A DNA stretch of 64,000 nt, taken from assembly GCF_000265295.1 (NCBI RefSeq), contig NC_018002.1:1116001-1180000 (forward strand), given 5' to 3'. The stretch is from Sulfurospirillum barnesii SES-3 (GTDB lineage: Bacteria; Campylobacterota; Campylobacteria; Campylobacterales; Sulfurospirillaceae). Of the stretch, positions 27,668 through 30,091 are shown one piece after another (within the stretch, counting starts at the first letter, position 1; the number at the start of each line of letters is the position of its first letter). Position numbers and translations under genes: made by a program. The notes beneath the pieces were generated by a model. The model was not told the origin of the DNA and did no database searches. It was given only the letters and a program-made list of their open reading frames with translations.

Positions 27668-27814
27668 ATGAAATCACGCGAAATTTCAAAAGAAACGATC
27701 AAAAAAGTTGTTTCAATCTCCCAAAGTATAGAAGGCTACAAGCCTGCATCTAAACTTTTGCAACAACAAGCTAAAGAGATTATGGCAAAGTACAATGTCA
27801 AAATATCGGCTTGA
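27668..27814 (+). CDS. Class I Fic antitoxin (VbhA/YhfG-like), 48 residues
   Basis: A small gene directly upstream of and overlapping fic by 20 bp. The 48-residue product starts MKSREISKETIKKVV and contains SQSIEG (residues 18-23). This fits the (S/T)xxxE(G/N) inhibitory motif, whose glutamate blocks ATP gamma-phosphate binding in class I Fic modules. The size, position and overlap are exactly those of VbhA-type antitoxins. AAAGG lies upstream (around 27654). The rest of the protein is charged and helical. The call rests on the motif plus the neighbouring fic gene. Confidence 0.75.
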   Translation: MKSREISKETIKKVVSISQSIEGYKPASKLLQQQAKEIMAKYNVKISA

Positions 27815-28403
27815 TGAGAGTCCTATCTACATTGAAGGAACGGATGTTCCTAAAAACAAACTAGGCATTGCTGATGCAGATATTATCCACGAAATAGAAA
27901 ACAATCTTCTCTTTCAAGCCTACGAAAAATTTCCCTCCCAAATCACTGAAAAAACACTCTTCGATGAAACCTATTTCATCAATCTTCACAAAAAAACATT
28001 TGAGTCTTTGTACGATTTTGCAGGAGTGTATCGCACGGTCAATATGAGCAAAGGCGACTCACAATTTTGCCTAGCATAGTACCTTCCAAGCGAGTCTACA
28101 AGAATCTTTACCGAACTCAAAAAGGACGCTTATCTTCTTACATGTAAAGATAAAAAAGAATTTGCAAAAAAACTGGCATACTACAAAAGTGAGCTGATAG
28201 CCTTGCATCCTTTTTATGAACTAAACGGTCGAATACTCCGCCTTTTCATCGATATGCTTTGCCTTTACAATGGTTATAATTTTATTGATTATTCCATGAC
28301 TATTGAAAATAATGCCTATATCGAAGCATCAATTTTGTGTGTGCAATATGCTGACAGTTCTAAGATGGAAGAGATTATTGAAAATGGATTAACAAAAAGT
28401 TAA
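27795..28403 (+). pseudogene. Fic-family AMP transferase interrupted by an in-frame amber codon
   Basis: A Fic-domain toxin reading frame of ~200 residues with a single in-frame TAG at 28077-28079. The frame continues without shift to the TAA at 28403. Before the stop: MSKYRLDESPIYIEGTDV, LHKKTFESLYDFAGVYR and the flap-like SKGDSQFCLA. After it: YLPSESTRIF and the active-site loop HPFYELNGRILR. The loop keeps the catalytic His, acidic residue, Asn and Arg of HxFx(D/E)xNxRxxR, with Leu replacing the usual Gly. A CAG-to-TAG change would explain the break. A palindrome copy at 28138-28147 encodes TCK. It is probably an inactivated toxin beside an intact antitoxin; sequencing error or suppression remain possible. 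Confidence 0.8.
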
Positions 28404-28464
28404 AAGTTTAGCTCGGACTCCTATCTTTGATTTAATTTATCAACAAAGAAAATAAATATTTTTC

Positions 28465-29322
28465 TTAATATTCAAAACTCATTGACCACTGAATACCAGT
28501 TAATTCTTTAAAAACTTTCATTTGCATTAATCCATAAAAAGTTCTATATTCTTGAAGATTTGAATACTGCTCCATCAATAAATTGAATGAACGATTATAC
28601 TCATTGCTTTCTCTCATAACTTCATTGACTGTTGATGTAAATGAAGTTAATTTGTCAAAACTAAAATCTTGACCATCTATATTGTTTAAAGTTTTTAGTA
28701 AATCAACATTTTCAATTTTTTCTGGTTGACTAAATGCTTTTGAGATTGTTCCCGCTTGAACAAATGTATTTTTATGATGCCCTGACAAGTTTGACACTTT
28801 TTGAAAGTTTGTTTTTTCAATTATCTGTTTTTTCATACTTGCTTCTACTAATTCTTCCACATTTTTAATAGCAGGTGCAGCATATAAAACCAATGCTTGT
28901 TGTCCAAACTGACCTTCAAGATGCTCAAGTAATTTTTGCTGTTTTGGATATATTTCATATCTAAAATATGGTTGTTTCCAATGACTCCATTGTCCGCTCG
29001 AAGGTAATATCAAATATTCAGATCTTTTGTACTGAAATAATAAGTTGGTTTTTATTTTTGGTATATTGTGAATACTTGCTTTTGTATGATACTCCATCTC
29101 CTGTGCAATATCCTGTAAATTTCTACCTCTGTAAGGTGGCTGAAACCAAAACCAAGGATAACCGAACATCTTCCATAGTTGCCTATTTTTTGAATATGCT
29201 ACAGAATCTGCACCTATGACTCCTTCTTGTGTCTGACCAAGAGGGAAATAGACAGAACTTAAATTACCCAATTCTGCATTAAAATAATTTTCAAATGTTT
29301 TTTCTTCATACGATGTATTCAT
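28465..29322 (-). CDS. Unknown protein, possible PD-(D/E)XK-like nuclease
   Basis: A 285-residue soluble protein that I do not recognise by name. The start was set at MNTSYEEKTFENYF (29322); a longer reading adds seven residues. The N-terminal third has an arrangement consistent with a restriction-endonuclease-like core. There are glutamates at 17 and 33 (AELG, QEGVIG), an Asp at 39 in GADSVAYS, and Q97-x-K99 in LLFQYKRSEYL. The middle is rich in aromatic residues (YPWFWFQPPYRG), and the C-terminal half looks helical. It sits between a Fic module and a HepT/MntA module on AT-rich DNA, which suggests a defence or accessory role. No function is established. Confidence 0.45.
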   Translation of the reverse strand: MNTSYEEKTFENYFNAELGNLSSVYFPLGQTQEGVIGADSVAYSKNRQLWKMFGYPWFWFQPPYRGRNLQDIAQEMEYHTKASIHNIPKIKTNLLFQYKRSEYLILPSSGQWSHWKQPYFRYEIYPKQQKLLEHLEGQFGQQALVLYAAPAIKNVEELVEASMKKQIIEKTNFQKVSNLSGHHKNTFVQAGTISKAFSQPEKIENVDLLKTLNNIDGQDFSFDKLTSFTSTVNEVMRESNEYNRSFNLLMEQYSNLQEYRTFYGLMQMKVFKELTGIQWSMSFEY

Positions 29323-29453
29323 TGTTTTCCTTCGATAATACATTTATCAAACCCAAACTGTTAGTTAAACAGAAGAGCTTTTTTGTCATCACTAAGCTTC
29401 AAAAAGCAGTTGATAACAAAAAACAAAAAGGATCGGAACTAAATTTTTAACTT

Positions 29454-29801
29454 TTATCTTGCCACCAACTCTTTTTTCATCACCTCTATTTGAACTTTAA
29501 GCGTTGGAAACTGCTCAGTAATCACTTTCCAAACAATCTCTTCATCGATTTCAAAGTACCAATGAATGAGCTTATCACGCATTTTTGCCATGAGTGACCA
29601 AGGAATTTGGAGGTATTTGGAGGCTATTTCATCGGGGATTTGTTTGGTGGCTTCACCGATAACTTCTATTTCACGAACACAAGCGCTTACTGTTTTATCA
29701 TCAGCCTTGAAGCGTTCAAAGTCATAGCCAGCGGTGAATGTTTCTATCTTGTGAATGCTTTTGAGAATATCATCAAGGTATAAAATATAATTGCGTTTCA
29801 T
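29454..29801 (-). CDS. hepT: HepT-like RNase toxin (DUF86)
   Basis: The toxin of a HepT/MntA type VII toxin-antitoxin pair: a small all-helical HEPN-domain ribonuclease. The 115-residue protein contains the HEPN active-site motif RX4HXY as RDKLIHWY. It also shows the family segments LDDILKSIHKIETF and REIEVIGEATKQIP. Its start overlaps the end of the upstream antitoxin gene by 4 bp (ATGA). The active-site residues are all present, so the toxin is probably functional when not AMPylated. Confidence 0.88.
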   Translation of the reverse strand: MKRNYILYLDDILKSIHKIETFTAGYDFERFKADDKTVSACVREIEVIGEATKQIPDEIASKYLQIPWSLMAKMRDKLIHWYFEIDEEIVWKVITEQFPTLKVQIEVMKKELVAR

Positions 29802-30091
29802 ACCGCAATCGCTTCTTGGAGAATGGTTTGGGAGAGTTCAGCTCTTAGTTTTCGTTTGGGCACCAAATCAACATTTTTACCCAGTGCACTTTTTAGTTTC
29901 TCTTCGAGTTCGATAAAAGTCAATAAATCAGGAGTTTGCGAAAAATCGACGAGTACATCAATATCGCTTTTTTCTGTCGCCTCGCCTCTTGCCATTGAAC
30001 CAAAAAGAGCAAGTGATGTGATATGATAGTTGGGTGCAAGTTGAGCTTTTAAGACAGATAATTTTTGCAAAATTAGCTCTTTTTCACTCAT
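29798..30091 (-). CDS. mntA: MntA-like minimal nucleotidyltransferase antitoxin
   Basis: The antitoxin partner of HepT, which inactivates the toxin by transferring AMP to the tyrosine of its RX4HXY motif. The 97-residue protein has the nucleotidyltransferase signature GSX10DXD (GSMARGEATEKSDID) and continues VLVDFSQTPDLLTFIELEEKL. It is the first gene of the pair, and hepT overlaps its stop by 4 bp. A palindrome copy lies 67 bp upstream. Confidence 0.88.
   Translation of the reverse strand: MSEKELILQKLSVLKAQLAPNYHITSLALFGSMARGEATEKSDIDVLVDFSQTPDLLTFIELEEKLKSALGKNVDLVPKRKLRAELSQTILQEAIAV

Follow-up and report, generated by a model that had tools for sequence, protein, structure and literature searches.

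The gene at positions 28465 to 29322 (minus strand) of the window, the whole 64 000-nucleotide stretch of Sulfurospirillum barnesii SES-3 DNA that was analysed, encodes a 285-residue protein, which is best explained as a metal-dependent nuclease of the PD-(D/E)XK superfamily with a D-QxK active site. We read it as a mobile, self-contained effector that would act against phages or other mobile elements by cutting invading DNA, and put the probability of this reading at roughly two-thirds. The argument draws on residue conservation, on the predicted fold, on the mobility of the gene and on the recurring immune neighbourhoods of its relatives, all observed computationally. For the antiphage role, only the context of the relatives speaks; on that ground the window gene is a good candidate for phage defence by one gene.

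The open reading frame, listed in a preliminary description of this DNA, is genuine: its start and full length are kept in relatives. An alternative, longer frame begins with the ATG at 29343, but the start at 29322 was preferred because GAAGGA lies just upstream of this ATG and the methionine is shared with the relatives. The AT-rich setting reported earlier was also found; the GC content is 30.5% in the gene, 39.2% over the window and 46.6% in the Tex gene. Like the preliminary description, which could name no defence family, we found no match to the 285-residue protein among the PADLOC, Pfam, NCBIfam and PHROGs profiles, or among PDB sequences. Profile searches with single proteins returned DUF7018, DUF2797 and AMA1 as chance matches only. 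The D-QxK protein was filed as an undescribed family inside the PD-(D/E)XK superfamily, absent from every library searched.

Iterative profile searches gathered about 20 relatives, with identity down to 16%. The close copy in another species of the genus (G123) is 95% identical and has the same start and full length, and these are also kept in the relatives from Candidatus Nitrotoga (47% identity) and from a Vibrio coralliilyticus plasmid (40%). Further relatives were found in G760, G310 (frameshifted), G1068, G1399, G1240, G1374, G457, G484 and G360, on plasmids of Pseudoalteromonas, Sulfitobacter, Pseudosulfitobacter, Phyllobacterium, Sinorhizobium and Agrobacterium, and in two viral contigs, one with restriction-modification (RM) genes (L018) and one prophage-like (L040); the annotated phage records searched contained none. 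The family is rare: it occurs in 2 of 249 genomes of the phylum, in 2 of 24 of the genus and in about 1% or fewer of the sampled Pseudomonadota genomes. Profile comparison of the long subfamily, to which the window protein belongs, with the compact one gave a probability of 98.6 (E 6.9e-16) and placed their QxK motifs opposite each other; by this comparison the two subfamilies are homologous. The G310 copy (L007:1429-1520) is frameshifted near its start, and is therefore probably non-functional. The Phyllobacterium copy (L028:8989-9818), near two HipA genes, also looks broken, its annotation consisting of two short ORFs.

In an alignment of 14 sequences only G37, D39, Q97, K99, Q128, L132 and Y147 are invariant, whereas E7, E33, R121 and S198 are near-invariant. 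D39, Q97 and K99 are thus present in 14 of 14 aligned relatives, at identities down to 16%, and supply the conserved acidic residue and the (D/E/Q)xK motif in adjacent strands by which the superfamily is recognized. D39, the predicted catalytic residue of a GxD motif, is encoded at 29206-29208, the predicted metal ligand Q97 at 29032-29034 and the predicted catalytic lysine K99 at 29026-29028, all on the minus strand. The preliminary description had pointed to E17, E33, D39, Q97 and K99, and translation of the ORF places all five where it had put them. As the helix glutamate, however, E17 had to be dropped, because it is not conserved. The likely active-site glutamate is E7 (codon 29302-29304, minus strand), which lies in the first helix (residues 7-20 of the model) and is glutamate in all rows covering that position. 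E33 (29224-29226, minus strand) is glutamate in 12 of the 13 covering rows of one alignment (A10) and in 13 of 13 of another (A7). The distance from D to Q is 53-64 residues in the window's long subfamily, 24 in the relatives at L012 and L019, and 13-14 in the compact relatives. Since the spacing is longer than in other members, the window subfamily carries an insertion between the catalytic D and QxK, at about residues 44-87 (29062-29193, minus strand).

An AlphaFold2 model built from six sequences had a pLDDT of 37.5 and was discarded. The model used here was built from 14 sequences, leaving out relatives of plasmid origin such as Vibrio L004 and Pseudoalteromonas L019, and had a pLDDT of 79.1 and a pTM of 0.65. 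The predicted model has an alpha-beta core with a central sheet as in Hjc and restriction endonucleases; strand 94-98 ends in QxK, and D39 immediately precedes strand 40-43. A structural aligner run with residues 4-195 put Hjc resolvases at the top (Z 8.9, rmsd 3.0, 107 residues); further matches were I-Ssp6803I (Z 8.0), DREN of the SPARDA system (7.0), RecU (6.5), a tRNA-splicing endonuclease and EcoRV (4.5). Foldseek also placed Hjc first, with a probability of 0.96 but a weak E-value of 0.13, and Z scores of 8-9 are only moderately above background. The best viral match in Foldseek was a DUF4365 phage protein. Matches given by VIA for the C-terminal helices (Ebola VP30 and Lon, Z about 4) and its match to Rep15 (Z 6) were judged uninformative. 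Because the well-ranked chains come nearly all from a single superfamily, and because the residues expected in it are those found invariant, the protein very probably adopts the PD-(D/E)XK fold. The restriction-endonuclease-like fold suggested earlier is thus backed by conservation and by the model, and the structure search that had been proposed as a check returned Hjc, I-Ssp6803I and DREN at the head of a list in which nearly all of the best matches are PD-(D/E)XK nucleases.

With Holliday-junction resolvases as the top structural matches, the protein could be a recombination or junction-processing nuclease of the Hjc/RecU kind, serving the mobile elements that carry it rather than defence; the carriers are plasmids, a prophage and integrons. 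Archaeal Hjc, the best match, has a similar core arrangement, and the short distance from D to ExK in Hjc is much like the 13 residues that separate D from Q in compact relatives. In the comparison with Hjc and RecU the model fold matches, but the glutamate of ExK is replaced by Q; the window protein is also more than twice as long as Hjc, and is encoded by a bacterial accessory gene of immune and mobile contexts. Hjc is not singled out by the structural scores, because DREN and the homing endonuclease I-Ssp6803I lie within 1-2 Z of it. Members of the family, moreover, occur in unrelated types of element and in RM and CBASS loci. A junction-processing role appears very unlikely.

The defence reading has a parallel in DREN, the DUF4365 nuclease of SPARDA short-Argonaute systems, whose role is defence and which shares the PD-(D/E)XK fold and the D...QxK site with the window protein (Z about 7). 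The catalytic residues of DREN, which has the same fold, are D41, Q60 and K62; the D41A and Q60A replacements abolish cutting, and K62A impairs it (PMC12205087). In TmuRE, a related DUF4365 protein, Q62 and K64 were mutated as the active site (PMC10810196). Since both enzymes use glutamine, Q in the usual acidic place is compatible with activity. Unlike DREN of SPARDA, the 285-residue protein has no APAZ match, carries the 44-residue insertion between D and QxK, and has a C-terminal helical part. No DUF4365 profile match was obtained with four members (Pfam, E<=10), nor at L002, L004, L007, L008, L012, L022 and L023, and no Argonaute gene was noted among the genes adjoining the window gene (HepT, MntA, the broken Fic frame and Tex) or in the neighbourhoods of relatives that were read. 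In its way of working the protein can be compared with Shedu (SduA, DUF4263), a lone PD-(D/E)XK nuclease that protects against phage; there was no DUF4263 match in Pfam and no Shedu match in PADLOC. It also resembles type IV or Mrr-like solo restriction enzymes as a solo gene of DNA-cutting type in defence islands, cutting being a prediction for our protein. Mrr, too, carries QxK-type sites, and the D-QxK family gave no Mrr_cat profile match.

The preliminary description had placed the gene between a HepT/MntA module and a Fic module. The former is a real neighbour: a HepT-like toxin is encoded at 29454-29801 (minus strand; PF01934, E 3.2e-28) and an MntA-like nucleotidyltransferase antitoxin at 29798-30091 (minus strand; PF01909, PDC-S09, NF047752 sub-threshold). 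In the Fic-family frame (27795-28403, plus strand) one TAG codon, at 28077-28079, interrupts the reading in frame, and the neighbouring Fic module is therefore not intact. The motif HPFYELNGR follows downstream of the TAG in the same frame, and no antitoxin was recognized alongside. G235 has HepT/MntA but not the nuclease, and Vibrio, among others, has the nuclease but not HepT/MntA. Since each is found without the other, the nuclease was rejected as a third component of the HepT-MntA type VII toxin-antitoxin system, and HepT/MntA is treated as a separate module. Toxin-antitoxin pairs (HepT/MntA, BrnT, HipA) are nevertheless common neighbours of the family, as they would be if the nuclease itself belonged to a toxin-antitoxin or addiction module whose antitoxin has escaped recognition. 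This is highly improbable: the neighbourhoods read contain no conserved small partner gene, and in cassettes the nuclease stands alone.

Comparison of sister species located the gene at a genus-variable site between Tex and a conserved gene of 185 residues. The site is occupied by HepT/MntA and the nuclease in the window and in G123, by HepT/MntA and a CheB/CheR-type gene in G235, by other arrangements in G109 and G804, and by low-GC single genes without assigned function in G248, G056, G206 and G812. The interval looks like an exchange hotspot. Low-GC (27-28%) single genes, further orphan candidates, lie in it in sister species at L075:209-1003, L077:156-776 and L080:149-973, and a CheB/CheR-type chemotaxis fusion gene is present in G235 and G804 (L076:847-3414 and L081:2206-4788).

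Between the window and G123 the synonymous divergence (dS) of the nuclease gene is 0.045, compared with 0.82 for HepT, 0.73 for MntA and 0.51 for the 185-residue gene. A segment from about 28431 to 29350 is approximately 95-100% identical, its flanks are more diverged or absent, and the high identity ends just beyond the 3' end of the nuclease gene. As dS is low compared with the neighbours and identity stops past the 3' end, the gene has been transferred recently between two species of the genus, essentially alone. The dN/dS between the two copies is 0.48, on few changes; this counts against the best explanation, as do the broken copies at L007 (frameshift) and L028 (split).

The neighbourhoods of homologues, another proposed check, were also read. 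Many relatives have immune or mobile neighbours, but about one-third (L002, L019, L029-L031 and L038) have no recognized defence or toxin-antitoxin gene nearby, which was counted against the defence reading. Judged by reading the neighbourhoods, immune-gene company is recurrent, and this impression is strong. In the viral contig L018 the genes after the nuclease encode AbiH (PF14253, E 7e-70), a C5 methylase and an AAA protein of the REase_II type, and in the prophage-like contig L040 the nuclease lies between tail genes and an integrase gene. Two TIR genes and HipA accompany it on a mobilizable plasmid (L027), and a BrnT-like toxin gene (E 1.4e-9) lies downstream at L008. As an integron cassette the nuclease was seen twice. 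On the Vibrio plasmid (L004) about ten VCR-like attC copies flank single genes of a cassette array; in G1374 (L026) a ThsB-like TIR gene (PF08937) and a gene for a PDC-M50A membrane protein lie directly upstream of the nuclease. The G1374 array is integron-like: the three genes are consecutive cassettes, and attC-like repeats flank the nuclease gene on either side (L026:6300-8690). Of 179 Vibrio cholerae integron cassettes at least 16 (about 10%) proved antiphage (review PMC12409362); the copies in Vibrio and G1374 therefore start from a higher prior. Because the nuclease is a lone cassette in integrons, a single-gene system is plausible.

As a counterpoint to a single-gene system, several relatives are closely packed among other immune genes. 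At L025 the order is an hsdR-like gene, an hsdS-like gene and the gene for a 4TM effector (PDLC00724, 8e-12), which overlaps that for a CBASS cyclase (PDLC00776, 3e-52), with the nuclease 65 nt on; an hsdM-like gene lies farther along beyond the nuclease. The CBASS cyclase, 4TM effector and nuclease are inserted between the hsdS-like and hsdM-like type I RM genes (L025:7704-11719). At L037, near a tyrosine-type integrase, HsdR, HsdM and HsdS (PDB matches E 9e-155, 3e-117 and 1e-26) are followed by the nuclease and, 10 nt on, by an ATPase; the nuclease and ATPase (L037:7580-10198) are possibly a pair added to hsdRMS. This AAA-type ATPase weakly resembles AriA of PARIS. At L036 an MmeI-like RM enzyme (3.5e-34) precedes a small gene that the nuclease overlaps by 4 nt, and an Mrr-like gene and a KAP-like NTPase, both assigned by eye, lie downstream.

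The 65 and 10 nt spacings, the position between hsdS and the ATPase and the 4 nt overlap would suit a suicidal effector, an accessory toxin released by other immune modules (CBASS, TIR, RM damage or HepT/MntA) instead of a self-contained sensor and cutter. The partner genes differ, however, at every locus, HepT/MntA and the nuclease occur without each other, and the nuclease is alone in integron cassettes. We consider a suicidal effector unlikely as an account of the family, though some members, closely linked as they are to genes of CBASS, type I RM or TIR systems, may be co-opted effectors.

For the self-contained nuclease, we infer activity on DNA and a role in defence. Invading DNA would be cut with a metal held by E7/E33, D39 and Q97, and K99 would serve as general base or transition-state stabilizer. 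The stand-alone cassette form argues that the enzyme can sense or select its target itself. Candidates for this function are the 44 residues inserted between D39 and Q97 and the helical C-terminal part (208-275), which may contribute substrate recognition or a restraint that spares the host. A more far-reaching proposal, which we hold tentatively and rate below an even chance, is that the D-QxK proteins are an undescribed single-gene antiphage family with two modes of use, as stand-alone cassette defence and as a plug-in effector repeatedly inserted in type I RM, CBASS, TIR and MmeI-like RM operons, the subfamily insertion by the active site setting sensing or cutting.

The family is missing from the annotation and defence-finding profile libraries searched, and its members therefore read as 'hypothetical protein' even in CBASS, RM and integron loci. 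If the nuclease alone protects against phage, it would be a compact defence gene of a kind that fits integron cassettes; if it is a plug-in effector, one nuclease would be common to unrelated immune systems.
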